A stretch of 64,000 bases of DNA from Candidatus Gastranaerophilales bacterium (lineage in GTDB: Bacteria > Cyanobacteriota > Vampirovibrionia > Gastranaerophilales > Gastranaerophilaceae). Position numbers and translations under genes: made by a program. The stretch covers positions 1-64,000 of the forward strand of contig UNSJ01000002.1 of the NCBI GenBank assembly GCA_900548405.1, in the 5' to 3' direction. The notes under the pieces are model-generated. The model saw nothing but the letters and a program-made list of their open reading frames with translations. It did no database searches and was not told the origin of the DNA. This document shows, piece after piece, positions 82 to 29,284 of the stretch. Every line of letters begins with the position of its first letter. Within the stretch, counting starts at the first letter, position 1.

Positions 82-795
82 ATGAAAGGAATGAGAGCGT
101 TTACTCTTGCTGAAGGTGCTACGCACTTAGCCAAGTCGAACAGTCAAAGCAAATATGCGTTTACTCTTGCAGAAGTATTAATTACACTTGGTATAATAGG
201 CGTTGTTGCTGCTATGACTATGCCTGTTTTAATAGGTAACCACCAAAAGAGTGTTACTATTAATCGATTAAAAAAGGTTTATACTGTTTTAAATCAGGCT
301 TACAAGTTGTCTGAAAATGAAAACGGTGAATATGCTTATTGGGCTAAAAAGGATGAAATAGGTGCAACAAACTACTTCAATAAGTATTGGAAGCCATATT
401 TTAACGGCACAAGCGTTTGTACAACATATAAAGAGTGCGGTTATGCAGAGGAGTTTCCTTGGAAAACTCTTAAAGGTGACAGAAAAAATAGTGTTCAGGT
501 TGTAGATAGTGCATCTGACAACAGAATTAGTTTTTTCTTAAATGACGGAACATTTGTATCGTTATCTGGTGCTATATATGTGGACATAAACGGACCGCAA
601 AAGCCTAATATTTATGGAAAAGATTTTTTCGTATTTACGCATAATGAGCGCGGTGTACTTCCGGGACAATACAACAGTTCTGAAGAATTTATCAAGCAAA
701 GATGCAGTAAAAGCCACAACTATGATGCAGGTACTTGTTCTGCAAGATTAATAATGATTGATAACTGGCAGATGACTGACGATTATCCGTGGTAG
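82..795 (+). CDS. Type II secretion/type IV pilin-like prepilin with duplicated FTLAE leader motif
   Basis: This is a 237-residue pseudopilin. The class III signal region is FTLAEVLITLGIIGVVAAMT, with Phe after the processing site, Glu at +5 and a hydrophobic helix, followed by a globular domain with several Cys. In this family a prepilin peptidase cuts before the Phe and methylates it, and the product goes into a pilus or pseudopilus. The leader is odd: AFTLAE occurs twice, 20 residues apart, so the protein has about 26 residues before the functional motif. The start at 82 follows a GGAG site (73-77). No pilus assembly genes are adjacent. The exact role (surface pilin or minor pseudopilin) cannot be told from sequence. 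Confidence 0.85.
   Translation: MKGMRAFTLAEGATHLAKSNSQSKYAFTLAEVLITLGIIGVVAAMTMPVLIGNHQKSVTINRLKKVYTVLNQAYKLSENENGEYAYWAKKDEIGATNYFNKYWKPYFNGTSVCTTYKECGYAEEFPWKTLKGDRKNSVQVVDSASDNRISFFLNDGTFVSLSGAIYVDINGPQKPNIYGKDFFVFTHNERGVLPGQYNSSEEFIKQRCSKSHNYDAGTCSARLIMIDNWQMTDDYPW
97..175 (+). repeat. Direct repeat of the FTLAE-coding motif (period 60 nt)
   Basis: The 19-nt string coding AFTLAE plus flank occurs at 97-115 and 157-175 with one mismatch (T/A at position 15). The period is exactly 60 nt (20 codons), so the reading frame is preserved. The spacer contains a short palindrome (GTGC TAC GCAC, 116-126). It looks like a tandem duplication or in-frame insertion in the leader of the prepilin. Confidence 0.8.
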
Positions 796-14976: not shown

Positions 14977-15687
14977 TTAAAATCTTACAGGATAATCTTT
15001 TGGAATTTTCCATCCATTTTTTTGTATTAATGCGGTACAGTATATTTTACTTCCTGTTTTGCTGCATCCATACGATGTTTCTGTCCAATCTATATCTTCG
15101 TTTGAACTATTTATCCATTTGTATGGTTCTATACCTTTATTTTTATGATATTTCCATTTTTTATCATCTGAATTGGGATAAAATGCAAACATAAAGTTAA
15201 TTTTACCATTTATTGTATTATTAGGATTATTTTGTTGGTTAAATATCTCATCTTTGTTTAATTTTTCGTAGTCTTTTCCATTCGGGAAAAAGTTATAAGT
15301 ACTTCCTCCGCGTCTGATTATAACAACACTTCCGTCACTAAAATATGCAACAACATAATTATCCTGATTCTTTTCTATTTTCGTTGTATTTAAATATTTT
15401 GCCAAATATTTATTGTACCATTCTAAATTGTCAGCAATATCGTTATTATCGCTATCAGTACCATGCTCAATCGTCCATGTGGATTTATCGCCATTTTCAA
15501 GCTCAGATTGAGTTATAGCTTGATTCATAACAGAATAAAATTTAGCAAGCCTTGTTTCAACAACATTTTTTCTATGATTAGCAATTAAAACAGGCATCGT
15601 CATTGCTGCCACCACACCAATAATGCCGAGAGTTATCAAGACCTCAGCCAGAGTAAATGCAGTTTTTCTTAAATCGCAGTGATGCAT
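14977..15687 (-). CDS. Type II secretion/type IV pilin-like prepilin
   Basis: This is a 236-residue pseudopilin with the leader MHHCDLRKTAFTLAEVLITLGIIGVVAAMTMPVL, the same core as the protein at the left end of the window, then a globular domain ending with a C-x7-C type pair. A prepilin peptidase should process it before Phe. The ATG at 15687 has no Shine-Dalgarno but a near-consensus promoter ends 9 nt upstream, so the message could be nearly leaderless. The frame is open upstream for 42 more codons to 15813, through a G10 tract and out of frame with an RBS-equipped ATG at 15821 (see findings). Confidence 0.85.
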   Translation of the reverse strand: MHHCDLRKTAFTLAEVLITLGIIGVVAAMTMPVLIANHRKNVVETRLAKFYSVMNQAITQSELENGDKSTWTIEHGTDSDNNDIADNLEWYNKYLAKYLNTTKIEKNQDNYVVAYFSDGSVVIIRRGGSTYNFFPNGKDYEKLNKDEIFNQQNNPNNTINGKINFMFAFYPNSDDKKWKYHKNKGIEPYKWINSSNEDIDWTETSYGCSKTGSKIYCTALIQKNGWKIPKDYPVRF

Positions 15688-15696
15688 AACATCACT

Positions 15697-15725
15697 ATTA
15701 TAACAGTATTTTTTACTTTTGTAAA
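15697..15725 (-). promoter_or_regulatory. Predicted promoter of the second pseudopilin gene
   Basis: On the minus strand TTTACA (15725-15720) is followed after 17 nt by TATAAT (15702-15697), preceded by CTGT. The predicted start of transcription falls about 2-3 nt before the pilin ATG, so this promoter would make an almost leaderless message. Confidence 0.6.
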
Positions 15726-15770: not shown

Positions 15771-15821
15771 TTACGAGTTTTGCGGGGGGGGGGCAATCCT
15801 TAATGCTCTTGTATCAATCAT
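15771..15821 (-). other. Short upstream ORF with strong RBS, crossing a poly-G/C tract
   Basis: On the minus strand AGGAGG lies 6 nt before an ATG at 15821, and 16 codons follow (MIDTRALRIAPPPQNS) before a stop at 15771. Codons 11-15 cross the C10/G10 tract. One base more or two fewer in the tract would fuse this start to the pseudopilin frame, which is open from 15813 down. It could be a contingency leader or a chance ORF. Confidence 0.4.
15784..15793. repeat. Homopolymeric G10 tract (simple sequence repeat)
   Basis: Ten consecutive G on the plus strand (C10 on the pilin coding strand) in an otherwise AT-rich intergenic region. Such tracts are prone to slipped-strand length change. The flanks, C before and CAAT after, are identical to those of the G10 tract in the autotransporter gene. 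Confidence 0.85.
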
Positions 15822-15889
15822 TTTCATCCTCCTTTTTATAGCATGTTTGACATTTTTCGTGAAATTTTTTAATATCACCTCAGAAGCTT

Positions 15890-19939: not shown

Positions 19940-22900
19940 TTGAGAAGAAATAAACTTAAAATTGCCGCTTTGGCTTATATTTGTTTATTATCTGCAGGTT
20001 TAAAAGTATCTGCGGCAGAAATTAATGTAAATGATTTTGATACACTTCAAAGCACAATTCAAAATGCTTCAAGCGGCTCCGTATTAAATATCACATTAAC
20101 AGACAATATTCAGTCTGCTTCCGAAATTGTTACCCAAAAAGATTCTGAAGTTTCTATTAGCGGAGGAAAAACTTATTTAATAAATTCCGATGCTCTCAAC
20201 CATAGAGGATTTAATGTAGTAAACGGTTCAACTCTTACAATTAGCAATACATCCATAAATAATTTTTTAATAAACCAAACTTCTGCATCACAAAGAGATA
20301 AAGGCGGTGCAATTTATGTAAGCGGTCAATTAGACATTAATAATACCGACTTTGTAAAAAATATTGCTTTAAACGGCGACCAGGCAAGCGGCACTGTTGT
20401 TATGGGCGGTGCTATATATGCTAAGCAGGGAACTGTAAATATAAACGGCGGACAATTCGATGAAAATGAAGCAAGACGAGGCGGTGCTATTGCAAGTGAA
20501 GATAATTCTTCTGCTATTTTCGTAATTGATAGTTCAGGATTTGTAGATAATAAAGCAGGATTTGCCGGAGGAGCTGTTTCAAACGGCGGTGTAATGTCAA
20601 TTACGAATTCAAACTTTAAAGGTAATATTGCTGACTTTTCTGCTGATACTTTTGAAAACGGCGGCGGTGCTATCTCAAATACGGGTTCGCTATATCTTCT
20701 TGGAGGGAATACTTTCCAGCAAAACATTTCAGGAAGAAACGGCGGCGCTGTCTTAAACAGATCTAATTCAGGAAGTAATATTATTATTACTGATTATGCA
20801 GAGTTTTTCGGTAACGAAGCCAACGTTGATACAACTAAATTCGAGAAGACTCTTAATGGCGGCGGTGCTGTGTTTAACGGTAATAAAATGACTATCGGCG
20901 ATAATGATTTGAATTCGAGAATTAATTTTACCTCTAACTCAACAACTGCAAGTGGTGGCGCTATATATAATAAAAAAGATATGGATATCAACGGTAAATT
21001 GTACTTCGCCACAAATTCAGCAGGATATAGCGGTGGGGCAATAGCTAATGCAGGTATATTAACATTAAACACCGGTACAAGTTTAGGTAAATTCCTGGAA
21101 AATACCTCAGGAGGTAACGGTGGCGCAATTGCCAATATTGGTACTCTTACTATTATCGGAGATACATCTTATGAAAGAAACTCAGCTGATATAAACGGCG
21201 GAGCGATTTATAATACTCAAAAATTAATAATTGACGGAACATCTAGTTTTGTTGATAACTCTAGTAATGGTAGCGGTGGCGCTATTTTCAATCAAGGTGA
21301 ATTGACAATTTCAGGAACTGCAACTTTCCAAAATAATTCGTCAAATGGAAGCAACAGTGCTATGGCAGGCCAACCGGGCGGCGGTGCAATTTATAATTCT
21401 TCTATTTTAAATATTTCAGGTACCCGTAATGGTGATGTTTCAAGCGCTGATGCATCTATTCGTTTTTTAAATAACTCTGTTGCTAATACAAATAAAAGCA
21501 GTACAGGCGGTGCAATTCACGTTGGTGCAAATATGTATCTTACTGGAGCTGACTTTATAGGCAACAGTGCAGTAAGAGGCGGTGCAATCAGAGGTGAAGG
21601 CGGCGGAGCTGGCGATGATTTAATATTAAATGATGCAAAATTTTTAAATAATGCTGCCGAAAGATATGGTGGTGCAATATCATCAGCAGGAACAGCAAAT
21701 ATATATGTTTCAAATTCTTATTTTGAGGGAAACAAAGTCACTGATAAAACAAACGGCGGAATGGGCGGTGCTATAACCAACGGCGGTAATCTTACTATTT
21801 TGAACTCAACTTTCAAAAACAATTCTGCTGCAAATCACGGCGGTGCTGTAAGTTTCAACGGTAATAAACTTTCAATTCTTGCAGACGGTGCGGATACTGT
21901 TTTTACCGGCAATAATAATACAAACGAAGGTCTTTATATATACTCTACAACAAAACCTGTTATTAACTTTAATGCCGGTAACGGTTCTAACATTAGATTT
22001 GACGATAAAATAGTTTCAAGTGTTACACAAAATATAGATTTAAATAAAGACAATATTTATTACAACCATTTTGAAGATTTGCTTGCAGGTTTGCCGGCAT
22101 CAACTTTAGCTCCTGTGAATGGCAATATTATTTTTAATAATAACTTAAAAAATGTTAATCTTACTTTGTATAACGGAACATTAAAAATTGGTGATGATTC
22201 AAGTATTTTAGCATCAGGTGAAAATTATTTTACAAATTCTTCATTAACTTTGAACGGCGGTACGCTTGATTTGGCTAACGGAAATATTGAATCAGGAGAT
22301 AAATTAAAGTTAAATAATTTTGTTGTAAATGATGATTCTAATCTTCAGTTGGATGTTAACCTGAGCGCTAACGGCGGCAGCGGTGAAATTGATTACATCA
22401 ATTCCGATATTACAGGAAGCGGAACTCTAACAATTGATAAAATTAATTTTGAAGGCGGTTTATCAGGTGACTTGGGTGTAAGTAAAGAACTTCAGTTTGC
22501 TAAAAGTAATTCTGTATCAACTTCATTATTAAACAGTTTACAAACTGTAATTACAAGTGATGCAGGATACGGTCTGGACTTAACAACCACTAACAGCGGT
22601 AAAGATACTCTTTCCGTAACAAAAGTTGTTAACAAAGGCGGTCTGCCAATTGCTGTTTCAATAGGTGACAAATTCGGTTCAGGCTCTAGTACGTATGTTT
22701 ATTCCGCTACCAGTGATGAAACAATTGATGACTGGGCTATTGAATATTCGTATATTGATAACTCAGGAATTGTTCAAAGCACCACTGCATCAAATATATT
22801 AATGGGTAATGAACTTGTAATCAACGGAAACAGTTACAGTGTTATTACTACTGCCAGTGATTTAGCAGGTATAGTTTTGAACAACGGCCAAACATTATCT

Positions 22901-25900
22901 GTAAATAATGTTATGGGTTGGGAAGGTTTTGCCTCTGCAGTAATAAATAACGGCGGAACTGTTAATATTCAAAATTCTACATTTTCAAATAACGTATCTG
23001 CTTCCGGAAACGGTGGTGCTGTACAAAACCTTGCAAACGGAATTTTAAATATTAATAATTCAACATTTGAAAATAATTCTGCTGTACAAGGCGGTGCTAT
23101 TTATAACGAGGGAACGGTTAATATTTCTGCTGACAATTCAACAGCAGTAGTGTTTTCAGGCAATTCTACCGATGTTCATAATGAAGGCGGTACATTAAAT
23201 TTAACTGCCGATAAAACAAGTTCAATAACATTTAATGATAAGATTACAGGTAATAACGGTACTATAAATATTACCGCCTCAAATTTCGGAAGCATTATAT
23301 TTAACAATACTGTATCAAATTCACTGCTGTCCTTGAACAGTGGAACTATGCAAATAGGAAAAGACACATCTCAACTGTCAGCAGGTGATAAATATTTTGA
23401 TAACGTTGCATTAACCGTAAACGGCGGTACTTTAAGTCTTCAAAACGGTCAGATTGATACAATTGATGTCACTGATTTTATCGTGAATAATTCTTCTCAA
23501 TTCCTTTTGGATATTAATTTAACAGCAAATCAACAATCAGATAAAATTAATGCAAATACAGCCGGCGGAAGCGGTACAATATGGATTGGACCGGTTAATA
23601 TTACAGAGAAAATGGCTGATGGAACAACTTCTATTTATGCTGACTTTATAAACCAAAATGTAAGCACTGCAATTGAAGATGTAAATAAAACAATAACAGT
23701 TGACGGAGCTATTTATTCTGTTGATGTTGCAGGAAACAGAATTACTGTTGCAAAAGAAGGTGAATCAGGAGGTTTTGCTTATGAAGTTATAAATCCTGAG
23801 CCGATAGAAAGAACCTTTATTATAGGCTCCAATGATGTAACAGTAAACTCTTGGATTAACGGAGATAATAATCTTGCAGGTACGAGATTCCAAATAACAG
23901 GCGGCAGCAACGGAAATTCTCTTATCGGTTCTGATATAGAAGGTATAATTGTTAAAGCCGGTCAACAGCTTGATATTACAAGTGTATCATCTTATGAAGG
24001 TTTTAAAAGTGCTGCTGTAAATAATGGCGGTGTTGTTAACATATCAAGTACAAAATTCCAAAACAATAGCGGAGCGGAAAATGGCGGTGTAATTCGAAAT
24101 AACAGCGGAACTGTTTCAATTGACGGCGGAAGTTCATTTATAAATAACAGTGCTGATGAAAACGGCGGCGCTATTTATAATAACGGAACACTTAATATCA
24201 ATACTTTTGCCACTGCAGGAACTTTTGTAGGAGATATTGTTTTTGAAAATAATACTGCAAAACAAGGTTCTGATATTTATCAAACAGCATCAGGCATTAC
24301 CAATATAACAGGAGATAATGGCGGCAAACTTACTCTAAACGGCGGCATAGCAGGTTTAGGTGTAATCAATAAAAGCGGAAACGGAACTCTGGTTCTTAAC
24401 GGTGATAATTCAGCTTATAATGGAAAATTTATTCAGACAGGAGCTGTCAATGATGAGGGTGAAGCTGTCACAGGCGGTAAAACAACCGTAAACAGCGGAG
24501 CAAAATTCTTTAACGGTCAAACTACCATTACCGACAGTACTCTTGAATGGTTAACATCAGAAGATTTAGATTATACTCAAGCTCAAAAGCCAAAGTTAAC
24601 AATAAACAGCGGTAATTTAATCGTAGGAAATTCAGCTAAACTTACAATTGATAACGGCGGCTCAATTGCTGACAGCGTTGCTGTTGAATTAAACGGAGAT
24701 TTAATCTTAAAAGAAGATATGTCTGTTAGCGGTAATATTTCAGGCACCGGTAATCTTACAGCTGATAATATAGCTCTTATAGTTGAGGGCGACAATTCAG
24801 GATTTGACGGTAATTTTATACAAAATAAAGGTACAACTGATGTGAATGACGGAGGAACATTATTCAGTAATGTATCTTTAACAAGCAGTGTGCTTAACTT
24901 TAATGAAGGCTCAAAAGCTTCTTCAACATCTGTATTTAAATCAACTGATTCAACCGTATCTCTAATTTCAAATTCTGCAAATTCCGACACAATTTTGAAT
25001 GCGGTTAAAAACGGAACAAACAGTAATTTAAATATCGTGATTGATAATACTGACACTGCTGAGGATTTGAATATCGACGGAACAAGCATTGCAGGGCTGA
25101 CTTTCAAAAATACTTCTGAATACAGTGGAATTATCACAGGTGCAGGAAACATTAAAAACGAAGGTACTTTATCCGTAAAAGGTGATGAATCAGGGTTTAC
25201 GGGTAAATTTACACAAACAGGAGCTTCTACAACTGTTGATAAAACAGGTAAAGTCTTTGGGGGCGATAAAAATATTCAGGCAGGAAGTTTGAATATTACA
25301 AGTTCTGATGTAATTGATTATACAAATGTACATTTATCAAGCGGAACCAAATTAAATCATACAACTGAAACAACAGCGCAAAATACTGTTTCTTCAAGTG
25401 TTGTGGATTTTGTTTCTGATGCACAGGGGGCTTCTGCTAACTTCTCTGCATCAGGTGTTACGGGTAATTATTTGATTACTGAAAATATTGATAACGGAAA
25501 GTCTAATACAATATCATTTTCAAACAGCAATGTAACTCTTGGAACTACGGATTTTACGGGTAATACTAATTATAACTTGACTGATTCTACTCTGGATTTA
25601 TCTTCGGATAGTTCTCTTGATAACTATGAGTTTTCAAGTTTTACAACTTCAGGTACAAATAAACTAAACTTTAACGCTAATTTTGTGGATACTGCAGATC
25701 CGAATGTTAAAGCTCTTGAAACAGATACTTTGCATGTTGCATCAGGCAATGCGGAATTTGAAGTAGGAAAAGTTTTTATTTCAGGACAGGAAAACGGACA
25801 AGCTGAATATAATACAACTCAAAACGTGCTTTCAGGAAATGCTCATTTTTCTGATGACAAGCCTGGAGAAGTTGTTATTTCAACCGGAGCTACTACATCT

Positions 25901-28900
25901 TATGAATACGAAGTTACAGTTACTGATGATAAACAATCAATTCAGCTAAGTGCTACAGGTATTACTGACGAGAATTCATTGAATGATATGAATATACTTG
26001 AAGGTAACAGATTTTTCCAATTCTCTATAGGTGATACTTCCGAATATCATATAGGACAGTCATTAGATGCTACTGCAGAAGGTGACTTTTATATTTCAGG
26101 ACGTTCTGAGAATGCGGCAGACAGTGTCCTTTCCGGAGCAATCATAGACAGCACAGGGGCTTTGACAGGTGATAACGGCAGTTTATTTAATATAGCAGAC
26201 AGTGTTAAAGCAAATCTTGAATTTTCCGATTTAACAATTCAGGATGCATATAAAAACGGCAACGGGTCTGTTATAGAAAATAACAGTAAAGATGCAGTTA
26301 TAACTTTGGATAATACAATTATCAAAAACAACTCATCAACAGGCAGCGGCGGTGCAATTTATAATGACGGCGGAAAAATTATTATAACTGATACAACTTT
26401 TACAAATAACAAAGCCGATGTCGGGGGGGGGGCAATATTTAATGCTTCGGGTGAATTATCACTTAATAACGTTACTTTCAATGCCGCAAATCAAACAACG
26501 GGTGCTAAAAATGATATTTATAATGCAGGAAGCATTGTAACATCAGGGAAAAATACATTTGCAAGTGATATTACCAATGACGGAAGCTTGAGTTTTGCAG
26601 GAACAAACAACGTATCAGGAAATATTATCGGTGCTGACACAGGTAATATTACAAATACAGGAATACTAAATCTTAAAGGTGATAATTCAGGATATAAAGG
26701 TACGTTTACTCAAACTGCGGGTACAACTACAGTTAATGATAAATTCTTTAGCGGAACCAGCACAATAAGTAACGGAACTTTAAACTGGTATACATCAAAA
26801 GATTTGCCTTCTGACGGAACATTAATTGTTCAAAACGGAAGATTTAATATAGGAAAAGACGGCTTAATGGCTGTTCTTACATTGAAAGCAGGAAGCTCAT
26901 TAGCCGATAAGTCAGCAGTAACATTAAACAAAGATGCAAAATTAAATATTGAAGGTGCTGATGTTTCATTAAATAATAATGATAACTGGGCAGGTAAGAT
27001 TACTTTATCTGACGGAAATTTAACATTAAACGGTTTAAGCTCAAACGGTATTATTACGGCAGAAGGCGGAAACCTTAATTTAAATTCAGGCAATTTGTAT
27101 ATCGCATCCAAAAGCTTGATAGCAGGTGACGGAAATAATCCTGCAGTAACAATTGCCGATAATGCTAATTTAAATATTGCAGGCGGAAATGTTACTTTGA
27201 ATTCTAACGATACCTGGAAGGGTAACGTTAATATGGTTTCAGGTGAATTAAATATTGATAATATCTCTGAAAACGGTAAAATTCAGGCTGTCGGCGGTGA
27301 TTTAAATATTAATAACGGAACGCTGACTGTTGAAAACGGTTCATTTATTACATCAGAAGTAAATGCATATATTGACAGTAATTCAACAATAGATATTAAA
27401 GATAAAGGTATCGTAAATATTAATGACGGTGATTCATGGAACGGTACTATAGCTTTAAATGGCGGTGTCTTGAATTACGGCACAACAAACAGCGGAACTC
27501 TTGCTGCTTCAACAGGTGATTTAAACTTATTAAGCGGTTCAATTTTAAATATCCAAACTCCAAGTCAGGTTGCCAATGAAGTTAATGTTGATATCCAAAA
27601 AGGTGCAACGGTAAATTTAATTAATAACAGCATATTCAACCTTGACAGTAAAGATAAATGGAACGGTATGATTAACAATGACGGCGGAAAATTGTTAACT
27701 GACGGACTTGTTAACCAAGGCGGCGGAGGCTTACAGCAAATAAGCGGAGAATCTGTATTTGATAACAATTCACACATTTCAATTACAGATGCTGACAGCT
27801 ACATTCAGGGCGGAAAAGTTTCCATATTAAATAATTCAAGCTTGTATATGGGGCCTAATGTTGAATATGAACTTCAAACTAATGAATTATTAATGAGCAA
27901 TAATTCCTCATTATATCTTATCAATAACGTATTGGAAGAGCCTGAAACCGATATTATGACAGTCAACGGGCTAAACAATGTTACGATTGATATTGCACCG
28001 AGAGGATGGGATAACGATAAATTTATTATTGACAGCCTAAAATCAGACAGTTCAGGTATATTAAATATTTCAGACTTCAACTTTATCGGTCTTGCACCGA
28101 TTGACAGGCATATAATGCTTCAAGTGTTTGATGCAGACAGCATTAAGGATGTAAATTTCACAGCAACGGATAAAGAAATATTTACGCCAATCGGCTGGTA
28201 TAATTTAAGACCGGCAGGCGGCGGTTATTATACATCAAATCTTACACGTTATAATCCTCAAGTATTTAGAGGTCAGGTTGCAACATTGGCAATGTATAAC
28301 AACCAGCTTGTAATTGATGATATGCTGCTTAATCACGTAAGTCTTCAAAGCGAGAGATTTTTGGCGCAGGGACAAGATGTAAACAAATATGCCGCAGTGC
28401 TTCCTCAGTTCGCTCCTTATCAGTATAAAAAAGAAGACGGAGGTCTGTGGTTCAAATCATATGCAACATTTGAAACTCTGTCTATGACACATAACCTTAA
28501 TGTCGGAAACAATGCTTACGGATACTTAATGGGTGCCGACTTCCCGGCAGTTGATTTGAAAAACGGCTGGAAATTCCTCCCTACGGCATATATAGCATAT
28601 AACGGCGGTCATCAGTATTTCAATCAGGTAAGTATGTATCAAAACGGCGGACAGGGCGGTTTTATGGGAACATTTATGAAAAATGATTTCATAGGTTCAA
28701 TACTTGCTTACGGCGGTGGATATTTTAATGAAATGAACGTTGCAGGTTACACTGATAATACTGGAAACTGGTTTGCAGGTACTGCTGCAAAACTTGCTTA
28801 CAATATACATGCAACAAAACATTTTACAATTCAGCCGACAGCATTTGTTTCTTATAACATATTCGGGAAACAAAACTGGGGTACTGACTTTGGTGCTATG

Positions 28901-29284
28901 AGTATGAATTCCGGTTACTTAAACGGCGTAAACGTAGCACCGGGATTGAACCTTATTTATGCAAGAGAAACCTGGAGCTTGTATGGAACTCTTCAATATA
29001 TATTTAATATAAATGATCAGATAGTAGGACGCGCAGGTAATGTAAATTTAAGTAATATTGAAATGCGTCACGGATATCTACAATACGGTATAGGTGCCAC
29101 TAAAACTTGGAAAGACAGATTGAATGCTTATCTTCAAATAACAATAAGAAATGGCGGAAGAACAGGTATCGGATTCCAGTTAGGAGCACAATACTTATTT
29201 GACTGGTACAATCCTAAATCAAACAAAAATTCTCAAAAAAATTCTCAAACTCCTGCCAAAAAGGTTCTTAAAACAATGAGATAA
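19940..29284 (+). CDS. Giant Pmp-like autotransporter adhesin (3114 residues) with poly-G tract
   Basis: A signal peptide (MRRNKLKIAALAYICLLSAG) leads a very long beta-helix passenger. Residues about 100-700, 990-1080, 1400-1490 and 2140-2210 are rich in GGAI and FxxN motifs (for example SFVDNKAGFAGGAVSN), the signature of chlamydial polymorphic membrane proteins. Passenger-associated repeats (GNGTLVLNGDNSAYNGKF) occur in the middle, and four Asp-x-Trp-x-Gly modules near 2348-2640. Residues about 2833-3090 look like an outer-membrane beta-barrel (LWFKSYATFE...FQLGAQYLF), followed by a 24-residue polar basic tail. A G10 tract codes VGGGAI at residues 2162-2165. The start is TTG with a weak GGA site; no better start exists after the stop at 19919. 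Likely a surface adhesin. Confidence 0.85.
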   Translation: MRRNKLKIAALAYICLLSAGLKVSAAEINVNDFDTLQSTIQNASSGSVLNITLTDNIQSASEIVTQKDSEVSISGGKTYLINSDALNHRGFNVVNGSTLTISNTSINNFLINQTSASQRDKGGAIYVSGQLDINNTDFVKNIALNGDQASGTVVMGGAIYAKQGTVNINGGQFDENEARRGGAIASEDNSSAIFVIDSSGFVDNKAGFAGGAVSNGGVMSITNSNFKGNIADFSADTFENGGGAISNTGSLYLLGGNTFQQNISGRNGGAVLNRSNSGSNIIITDYAEFFGNEANVDTTKFEKTLNGGGAVFNGNKMTIGDNDLNSRINFTSNSTTASGGAIYNKKDMDINGKLYFATNSAGYSGGAIANAGILTLNTGTSLGKFLENTSGGNGGAIANIGTLTIIGDTSYERNSADINGGAIYNTQKLIIDGTSSFVDNSSNGSGGAIFNQGELTISGTATFQNNSSNGSNSAMAGQPGGGAIYNSSILNISGTRNGDVSSADASIRFLNNSVANTNKSSTGGAIHVGANMYLTGADFIGNSAVRGGAIRGEGGGAGDDLILNDAKFLNNAAERYGGAISSAGTANIYVSNSYFEGNKVTDKTNGGMGGAITNGGNLTILNSTFKNNSAANHGGAVSFNGNKLSILADGADTVFTGNNNTNEGLYIYSTTKPVINFNAGNGSNIRFDDKIVSSVTQNIDLNKDNIYYNHFEDLLAGLPASTLAPVNGNIIFNNNLKNVNLTLYNGTLKIGDDSSILASGENYFTNSSLTLNGGTLDLANGNIESGDKLKLNNFVVNDDSNLQLDVNLSANGGSGEIDYINSDITGSGTLTIDKINFEGGLSGDLGVSKELQFAKSNSVSTSLLNSLQTVITSDAGYGLDLTTTNSGKDTLSVTKVVNKGGLPIAVSIGDKFGSGSSTYVYSATSDETIDDWAIEYSYIDNSGIVQSTTASNILMGNELVINGNSYSVITTASDLAGIVLNNGQTLSVNNVMGWEGFASAVINNGGTVNIQNSTFSNNVSASGNGGAVQNLANGILNINNSTFENNSAVQGGAIYNEGTVNISADNSTAVVFSGNSTDVHNEGGTLNLTADKTSSITFNDKITGNNGTINITASNFGSIIFNNTVSNSLLSLNSGTMQIGKDTSQLSAGDKYFDNVALTVNGGTLSLQNGQIDTIDVTDFIVNNSSQFLLDINLTANQQSDKINANTAGGSGTIWIGPVNITEKMADGTTSIYADFINQNVSTAIEDVNKTITVDGAIYSVDVAGNRITVAKEGESGGFAYEVINPEPIERTFIIGSNDVTVNSWINGDNNLAGTRFQITGGSNGNSLIGSDIEGIIVKAGQQLDITSVSSYEGFKSAAVNNGGVVNISSTKFQNNSGAENGGVIRNNSGTVSIDGGSSFINNSADENGGAIYNNGTLNINTFATAGTFVGDIVFENNTAKQGSDIYQTASGITNITGDNGGKLTLNGGIAGLGVINKSGNGTLVLNGDNSAYNGKFIQTGAVNDEGEAVTGGKTTVNSGAKFFNGQTTITDSTLEWLTSEDLDYTQAQKPKLTINSGNLIVGNSAKLTIDNGGSIADSVAVELNGDLILKEDMSVSGNISGTGNLTADNIALIVEGDNSGFDGNFIQNKGTTDVNDGGTLFSNVSLTSSVLNFNEGSKASSTSVFKSTDSTVSLISNSANSDTILNAVKNGTNSNLNIVIDNTDTAEDLNIDGTSIAGLTFKNTSEYSGIITGAGNIKNEGTLSVKGDESGFTGKFTQTGASTTVDKTGKVFGGDKNIQAGSLNITSSDVIDYTNVHLSSGTKLNHTTETTAQNTVSSSVVDFVSDAQGASANFSASGVTGNYLITENIDNGKSNTISFSNSNVTLGTTDFTGNTNYNLTDSTLDLSSDSSLDNYEFSSFTTSGTNKLNFNANFVDTADPNVKALETDTLHVASGNAEFEVGKVFISGQENGQAEYNTTQNVLSGNAHFSDDKPGEVVISTGATTSYEYEVTVTDDKQSIQLSATGITDENSLNDMNILEGNRFFQFSIGDTSEYHIGQSLDATAEGDFYISGRSENAADSVLSGAIIDSTGALTGDNGSLFNIADSVKANLEFSDLTIQDAYKNGNGSVIENNSKDAVITLDNTIIKNNSSTGSGGAIYNDGGKIIITDTTFTNNKADVGGGAIFNASGELSLNNVTFNAANQTTGAKNDIYNAGSIVTSGKNTFASDITNDGSLSFAGTNNVSGNIIGADTGNITNTGILNLKGDNSGYKGTFTQTAGTTTVNDKFFSGTSTISNGTLNWYTSKDLPSDGTLIVQNGRFNIGKDGLMAVLTLKAGSSLADKSAVTLNKDAKLNIEGADVSLNNNDNWAGKITLSDGNLTLNGLSSNGIITAEGGNLNLNSGNLYIASKSLIAGDGNNPAVTIADNANLNIAGGNVTLNSNDTWKGNVNMVSGELNIDNISENGKIQAVGGDLNINNGTLTVENGSFITSEVNAYIDSNSTIDIKDKGIVNINDGDSWNGTIALNGGVLNYGTTNSGTLAASTGDLNLLSGSILNIQTPSQVANEVNVDIQKGATVNLINNSIFNLDSKDKWNGMINNDGGKLLTDGLVNQGGGGLQQISGESVFDNNSHISITDADSYIQGGKVSILNNSSLYMGPNVEYELQTNELLMSNNSSLYLINNVLEEPETDIMTVNGLNNVTIDIAPRGWDNDKFIIDSLKSDSSGILNISDFNFIGLAPIDRHIMLQVFDADSIKDVNFTATDKEIFTPIGWYNLRPAGGGYYTSNLTRYNPQVFRGQVATLAMYNNQLVIDDMLLNHVSLQSERFLAQGQDVNKYAAVLPQFAPYQYKKEDGGLWFKSYATFETLSMTHNLNVGNNAYGYLMGADFPAVDLKNGWKFLPTAYIAYNGGHQYFNQVSMYQNGGQGGFMGTFMKNDFIGSILAYGGGYFNEMNVAGYTDNTGNWFAGTAAKLAYNIHATKHFTIQPTAFVSYNIFGKQNWGTDFGAMSMNSGYLNGVNVAPGLNLIYARETWSLYGTLQYIFNINDQIVGRAGNVNLSNIEMRHGYLQYGIGATKTWKDRLNAYLQITIRNGGRTGIGFQLGAQYLFDWYNPKSNKNSQKNSQTPAKKVLKTMR
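26423..26432. repeat. In-frame G10 tract inside the autotransporter gene
   Basis: Ten G, starting exactly at codon 2162, code Gly-Gly-Gly plus the first base of Ala in a GGAI motif. Elsewhere in the gene the same motif uses mixed GGC/GGT codons, so the pure tract is not forced by protein sequence. Gain or loss of one base would shift the frame and remove the C-terminal barrel. Confidence 0.9.
26981..27880 (+). repeat. Four tandem about 75-residue passenger modules (Asp-x-Trp-x-Gly)
   Basis: The motifs NDNWAGKI, NDTWKGNV, GDSWNGTI and KDKWNGMI start with Asp at residues about 2348, 2424, 2498 and 2572, a spacing of 74-76. Each is followed by LxLNGG/LNI strands and a GxLxAxxGDLNL element. These are diverged tandem repeats of the beta-helix passenger. 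Confidence 0.65.

Follow-up and report, generated by a model that had tools for sequence, protein, structure and literature searches.

The G10 run at positions 26423-26432 of the window, as we call the whole 64,000-nt stretch of DNA analyzed here, is apparently one of many error-prone G tracts by which gut relatives of the cyanobacteria turn surface genes, chiefly those of pilus subunits, on and off. We consider it likely that each of the window's two long G runs is a contingency locus, subject to phase variation of a simple sequence repeat. On balance, we also favour a broader reading, according to which Gastranaerophilales-like gut bacteria maintain an antigenic archive of prepilin genes (ten or more in several genomes) with hypermutable G/C runs in their leaders, most of them OFF, with one or a few shown and randomly swapped, beside tract-bearing flagellins, glycan genes and autotransporters. 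The better case for switching is the tract in a prepilin leader, not the tract in an autotransporter gene.

The window contains no runs of six to nine G and two runs of ten, one in an autotransporter gene (26423-26432) and one at a prepilin locus whose gene lies on the minus strand (15784-15793). The second was missing from the initial annotation, which had been made from the sequence alone. Dinucleotide shuffling gave a mean of 0.05 G10 matches, and two were reached in 1/100 shuffles; the gap between run lengths 5 and 10 is the appearance of expanded repeats. Read on the G strand, both runs are preceded by a C, and the same base precedes 14/18, 13/14 and 5/12 tracts in the genomes G002, G004 and G001, respectively.

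In order to place these runs within the lineage, we used 191 genomes of the family, presumably Gastranaerophilaceae, sampled evenly from a larger set. Tracts of at least nine G were present in 159/191 of them, with a maximum of 132 per genome over both strands; plus-strand tracts numbered 2211 (median of 4 per genome), and 39 genomes had 20 or more. The arrangement GGAG-N3-12-ATG-N18-40-G9, a run placed closely behind a start codon, was matched in 79/191 genomes. On the plus strand, it gave 771 matches in 67 genomes, compared to 38 for the same pattern reversed. Within the fetched DNA, which is enriched for such loci, the pattern was found at 131/240 distinct tracts (double counts 0/131), and when one pattern locus was taken per genome, 16/30 were prepilin-like, 11 by the strict motif and five as near variants recognized by eye. 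Across a phylum sample (n = 194), 98 smaller genomes gave 663 plus-strand matches (control 23), whereas 96 genomes of at least 2.5 Mb gave 11 (control 12). Since the large genomes remain at the control level, the leader-tract architecture is not a feature of cyanobacteria in general, although 181/194 phylum genomes do contain G9+ tracts. Campylobacter is known for the loss of mutS. Here, unlike in that genus, MutS scored above the cut-off in 153/191 family genomes, and mutS loss was therefore rejected as the cause of the tracts.

The three genomes closest to the window carry 12 (G001), 18 (G002) and 14 (G004) tracts, of which four, 13 and ten, respectively, lie in prepilin leaders; this classification lists rows without a long frame as intergenic, and two more prepilin loci of G004 were overlooked by it. 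Prepilin leaders also account for nine of the 20 listed tracts of G127, where one further tract precedes a prepilin. None was found among the classified tracts of G083 (0/19) and G188 (0/17), in which the runs are intergenic or lie within genes for glycans and other functions.

The prepilin-like gene of the window (DUF6613; minus strand, 14977..15687 from an internal ATG) carries the motif FTLAEVLITLG, and its frame is open up to 15813, through the tract. Read along the minus strand, GGAGG (15832-15828) is followed after 6 nt by an ATG (15821), a 28-nt leader (15794..15821, MIDTRALRI...), the C10 tract (15784..15793, G10 on the plus strand) and the open prepilin frame; an earlier ATG at 15827 shares the frame of the leader ATG. 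Reading from the leader ATG ends shortly after the C10 run, and the prepilin lies in another frame, which is the OFF state. A second prepilin gene of the window (82..795, plus strand) has no tract. Residues F11-G21 of the motif are invariant in the alignment except for the nearly invariant A14, and the structure model shows a long N-terminal helix (residues 13-65). With PF07963, the protein reached 20.1 bits, just under the cut-off of 21.2; the NCBIfam pilin models were also below cut-off, and the model had no match in the PDB at E 0.001 or better. Based on the cleavage/methylation motif and the modelled long helix, we assign the protein a predicted N-terminus of the type IV prepilin/pseudopilin kind. 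Because the run precedes the cleavage motif, it probably encodes a part that is removed from the mature subunit, so that changes in its length could leave the pilin unaltered.

When proteins were searched with the window prepilin frame, P0002 was retrieved, a protein of 278 residues from another sample that matches 97% of the query at 97% identity, represents 15 member sequences and shows the same leader start, a Pro run and then the prepilin. Since P0002 carries the same leader joined to the prepilin, the same locus occurs in frame elsewhere at the protein level, and the frame state would thus differ between copies, in frame in P0002 versus out of frame in the window. Among homologous prepilins, 21/240 read M, 4-16 residues, GGG or PPP and then the motif. 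Two further candidates for support at the protein level were set aside: P0053, because its start, as inferred, probably lies outside the leader frame, and the M-PPP starts (9/240 prepilin proteins), which are probably choices of the gene callers.

Between the run and the internal ATG of the window prepilin lies a promoter-like TTTACA-17-TATAAT (15725-15697, minus strand, 11/12 positions, with TG before it), and a GTGATG/CATCAC dyad is found at the internal ATG (15679-15695), within the same 15679..15725 element. With up to one mismatch allowed, the sequence TATAATNGTGAT is found in the interval from run to motif at 14/70 loci, 12 of them from G066/G090 and the others from G031 and the window. 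The stretch contains four promoter-like sites, which does not exceed chance (shuffles 2.7, sd 1.8), and the internal ATG has no Shine-Dalgarno sequence. Together, the internal element and ATG may give some tract-independent prepilin expression, and given such an element between run and motif, OFF may not be silent at loci of this kind. The ON form of the window prepilin would have an unusually long leader.

The run at 26423..26432 (plus strand) lies in a Chlam_PMP GGAI repeat of a 3114-aa Pmp-like autotransporter gene (19940..29284, plus strand), which is open through the tract and starts at a TTG (19940) without a clear Shine-Dalgarno sequence. The position and frame reported in the initial annotation proved exact, codons 2162-2164 being GGG and the tenth G opening the GCA of codon 2165, and the tract is indeed abnormal as the sole pure-G instance among 23 listed GG(G)A[IVL]-type motifs of the gene. 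The protein matched PF02415 (6.5e-16) and, in NCBIfam, POMP_repeat (TIGR01376, 5.8e-10), and the best stretch of Chlamydia PMP repeats by Pfam, residues 2151-2168, is the tract itself. Its last 415 residues (28037..29281, plus strand), aligned with 19 relatives, were modelled as a beta-barrel with a plug helix (pLDDT 79.1). All top 18 Foldseek matches of this model were autotransporter translocators, with EspP as the best (1.3e-13) and Hbp, AIDA-I, EstA, BrkA and NalP also among the matches. By sequence, the barrel region had no match in the PDB and none in NCBIfam, and the barrel was recognized by its fold. The earlier description as a Pmp-like autotransporter is thus borne out by Pfam and NCBIfam for the repeats and by the model and Foldseek for the barrel. 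The GGA(I/L/V) and FxxN repeats (PF02415/TIGR01376) and the C-terminal barrel are traits of chlamydial Pmps. That family is also characterized by a Pmp middle domain, which was not found beside the repeats, PF02415 being the sole Pfam family at E 1e-3, and we therefore refrain from assigning the protein to it.

As the barrel lies 3' of the G10 tract, a frameshift at the tract removes it. The other two frames stop after 2 or 35 residues, in agreement with the earlier estimate that a one-G slip costs about 950 residues including the barrel, and the predicted product would have about 2167 or 2199 residues and no barrel. The relatives include Candidatus Scatousia and Candidatus Gastranaerophilales entries, and some are labelled uncultured bacterium or Heliobacteriaceae. 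Comparing synteny with the nearest loci, a good match was obtained for the autotransporter only, those for the prepilin and a dehydrogenase being weak (30-45%). Four short autotransporter alleles (P0122, P0123, P0126 and P0128; 2147-2175 aa) are without some 900 N-terminal passenger residues of the window protein (19940-29284) and have the remainder in common with it, which makes the passengers mosaic.

We lean towards the view that the autotransporter tract at 26423-26432 truly switches, as the initial annotation had proposed. What makes this plausible is the lineage's habit of forming G runs, together with runs arising in orthologues, and not the record of this tract itself. The lineage-wide distribution and the predicted truncation strengthen the proposal, and mixed codons in relatives and the lack of enrichment weaken it. 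The initial annotation had itself regarded mixed codons at this place in relatives as evidence against switching, and these were found in four aligned relatives, reading GGC GGT in L001, L002 and L003 and GGC GGA in L006. At the protein level, P0122, P0124 and P0126 have GGGAIFN at the site (VGGGAIFN, in frame, in P0122 and P0124), P0123 has IEGGAIF and P0127 has LSGGAIY.

The main competing explanation, which we regard as possible but somewhat doubtful, is that the autotransporter tract arose incidentally: in a lineage that readily forms G runs, the codons of a Gly-Gly-Gly in the GGAI repeat would have drifted to pure G, with no maintenance for switching, an account that can leave the prepilin tracts free to be switches. 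It fits the density of tracts. A barrel relative of the autotransporter is present in 151/191 family genomes, and from the upper part of this list we took 40 regions, one per genome (8/40 frames leave the contig at the 5' end). Five of the 40 loci had a tract, compared to 4.28 expected from the genome-wide density (P 0.43), so that autotransporter-gene tracts stand at background level and the idea of an enrichment was rejected. The absence of the tract site in relatives, P0123 and P0127 included, points in the same direction, as does the lack of an OFF form: no truncated homologue ending at the tract was found among 120 listed of the 185 homologues (search with residues 2000-2400), where clustering at 90% could hide a truncated form. 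A split autotransporter, with a run just upstream of the barrel frame, occurred in 0/40 loci, and codon 2162 of 3114 is a late position for a switch, which counts against switching. On the other hand, GGG is a rare Gly codon in the gene (15/381), making three in succession unlikely without slippage or selection; VGGG is retained in P0122 and P0124; and in-frame coding-strand G runs occur elsewhere in the autotransporters of G002, G024, G041 and L003.

In the five tract-bearing loci, the run lies in the passenger (G002, G024 and G041) or at the start codon (G083 and G188), and L003, which is outside the 40-locus set, has one tract in the passenger and another upstream. In all of these tracts, the coding strand is the G strand. 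Those in the passenger are in frame, with the proviso that "inside" was here defined by the barrel frame. The G002 orthologue has its own in-frame G10 at a different passenger position. A search for DNA orthologues of that tract in 13 genomes of its genus gave two matching genomes, including G002 itself; the G001 match (97%) covers query bases 1-447 and ends before the tract. At L246:2140 (G083) and L148:9713 (G188), a G9 run directly precedes the TTG start of the autotransporter, where it may act as a Shine-Dalgarno sequence.

For the prepilins, the state was counted over all fetched DNA at distinct loci that combine a Shine-Dalgarno ATG and the prepilin motif with a run of 8 or more; tracts lacking such an ATG or the motif were left out, including those of 7/11 fetched G129 regions. 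The resulting 83 leader-tract-prepilin loci, with tract lengths of 9-13, comprised nine ON and 74 OFF loci, the latter divided into 35 and 39 between the two wrong frames. Against an expectation of one third, this deficit of ON has a binomial probability of 3e-6, with the loci of one genome not being independent. By genome, the ON loci were 2/13 in G002, 0/11 in G004, 0/3 in G001, 0/10 in G127, 1/10 in G066, 0/7 in G090, 3/10 in G031, 0/4 in G129, 0/1 in the window and 3/14 among single loci of other genomes. Within a subset of 70 loci, assembled before G031 and G129 joined, 124/140 wrong-frame readings stopped within 12 codons; in 30/63 OFF loci, the interval from run to motif held no in-frame start codon (ATG, GTG or TTG), and in 6/63 it held one preceded by a Shine-Dalgarno sequence. 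Tract lengths also vary between close copies. Among 190 distinct tracts, length differed in 19/27 pairs with alike flanks on both sides; two G083 paralogues have C9 in frame versus C10 out of frame, and G066 and G090 have G11 against G9, their upstream flanks being 94% alike over 400 nt. The deficit of ON suggests either that producing many pilins simultaneously is selected against or that an archive is used a few genes at a time, and assemblies, which show majority alleles, are compatible with both accounts.

It is unlikely, in our assessment, that leader and run instead form a recombination cassette, in which 5' ends are exchanged between prepilin genes and length change is secondary. This would account for P0242, which is 99% identical to the G002 prepilin at L183:1186-2061 and has another leader before the run, and for the likeness between loci in G002, G004 and G127, which is higher beside the run (0.41-0.86, ungapped) than in the gene bodies (0.29). 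However, P0242 is the one clear case and comes from a 1214-base contig that could be chimeric, and ordinary paralogy accounts for the likeness of the leaders. We give slightly less credence still to programmed frameshifting or transcriptional slippage, by which a fixed full-length fraction would be made from an OFF prepilin with the run as a decoding signal. The 74/83 leaders out of frame in assemblies do exceed the two thirds expected at random, but a programmed signal should fix both frame and length, whereas the two wrong frames are used about equally and lengths range from 9 to 13, and nine prepilin loci are in frame. Sequencing or assembly artefacts, for example the poly-G of two-colour sequencing, are a very improbable source of the runs: some do lie at or near contig ends, including one G22 (L299), but both window runs are embedded in coherent flanks, many others lie within long contigs, placement after GGAG-ATG is 20 times over the reversed control, and the same runs of Gly or Pro recur in homologous proteins of other samples.

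We thus return to phase variation at contingency loci. Slipped-strand mispairing is the established cause of length changes in simple repeats. We infer that DNA polymerase would slip on the run and shift its length by one or a few bases, whereby the downstream reading frame would be lost or, reversibly, regained, and populations would be mixtures of cells differing in their surface phenotype. The prepilin run would act from within the N-terminal leader, ahead of the cleavage motif. With mismatched lengths, the assembled state of the window, translation from the Shine-Dalgarno ATG would halt just past the run (OFF); with matching lengths, the state of P0002, the full prepilin would be made (ON). 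The autotransporter, with its run in a late part of the passenger, would now be ON, and a slip would yield a protein without the barrel.

Beyond pilins and autotransporters, we ran Pfam on 20 proteins at tracts that were picked by eye, a descriptive set that carries no enrichment measure; 4/20 had no Pfam family. Tract-bearing genes of the surface-glycan type included glycosyltransferases, capsule synthesis genes, WbqC, an FkbM methyltransferase, a GDP-mannose dehydratase and a hexapeptide acyltransferase. In two genomes, AlgX-like acetyltransferase genes are split about 100 codons in (L066:1497, G13; L175:1502, G11). Among the flagellins at tracts, those of L056 and L062 have the run ahead of the gene. 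In L068:1-1985 and L069:1005-3009, a G run parts Flagellin_N from a large GLUG-bearing remainder in another frame, and, judged from this arrangement, switching of giant flagellins is possible. A housekeeping gene was also affected: at L257:7558 (G188), G10 splits a phosphoribosylglycinamide-synthetase-like gene of purine synthesis (PF01071). The leaders of the G129 loci L291-L301 are nearly identical over about 50 nt, four of these contigs end 36-150 nt past the run, and L299 has a G22 near the contig end; the likeness suggests that these loci may carry a repeated 5' cassette.

Several known systems invite comparison. In Neisseria, pili vary through the poly-G tract of pilC and through pilE/pilS recombination. 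The two are alike in that G-run switching or a silent repertoire would bring variation to pilus biogenesis or structure; unlike in Neisseria, the run here lies within the prepilin genes, and the repertoire is mostly OFF by frame and not by lack of a promoter. For the Campylobacter poly-G/C phasome, the relevant sections of the PhasomeIt study describe runs that peak at 9-10 G and lie mostly in ORFs and on the coding strand, with 5-81 variable genes per strain at a cut-off of 7 G (PMC6321876). As far as that description goes, our lineage shares the 9-10 G peak, the preference for ORFs and the coding strand, the many tracts per genome and the targeting of surface-glycan genes. It differs in belonging to an unrelated phylum, with 0-132 G9+ tracts per genome, and in that the commonest target in the three closest relatives is the prepilin repertoire, with the run in the leader.

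Poly-G phase variation is also associated with pmp10 of Chlamydia pneumoniae. Like pmp10, the window gene combines a G run with GGA(I) Pmp repeats and encodes an autotransporter barrel; unlike in pmp10, the run comes very late (codon 2162/3114), the gene is not a chlamydial Pmp, and the run is in frame in every copy seen to bear it. The initial annotation had called poly-G Pmp switching established in C. pneumoniae, which was too strong, since the passage on this point in PMC4514472 describes homopolymer phase variation of these Pmps as "only hypothesized". The same source, in its part on C. trachomatis CT166, reports that the length of a 5'-end poly-G sets ON/OFF and shows mixtures in reads (PMC4514472). 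Going by that account, the prepilin-leader runs resemble CT166 in that G-run length near the 5' end would set ON/OFF; they differ from this single gene with its read mixtures in forming a repertoire known from assemblies and protein records. For a termite relative, type IV pilus genes are reported in the pertinent section of PMC5877343, and PMC7018530, in the portion concerned, names Gastranaerophilales/Melainabacteria and phase variation in separate contexts. The literature searched, which was limited, yielded no description of poly-G phase variation in Gastranaerophilales/Melainabacteria.

To our knowledge, poly-G phase variation has been described chiefly in pathogens and in Epsilonproteobacteria. 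Our results indicate that a largely uncultured commensal relative of the cyanobacteria appears to carry poly-G switches as well, aimed at pilus subunits in many species, and that tract numbers in its richest genomes are like or above those reported for Campylobacter, at different cut-offs. If this is true, prepilin starts would be misplaced by gene callers, the bulk genomes of these species would systematically hide the expressed surface, and switching in the gut would be directly checkable in existing metagenome reads.
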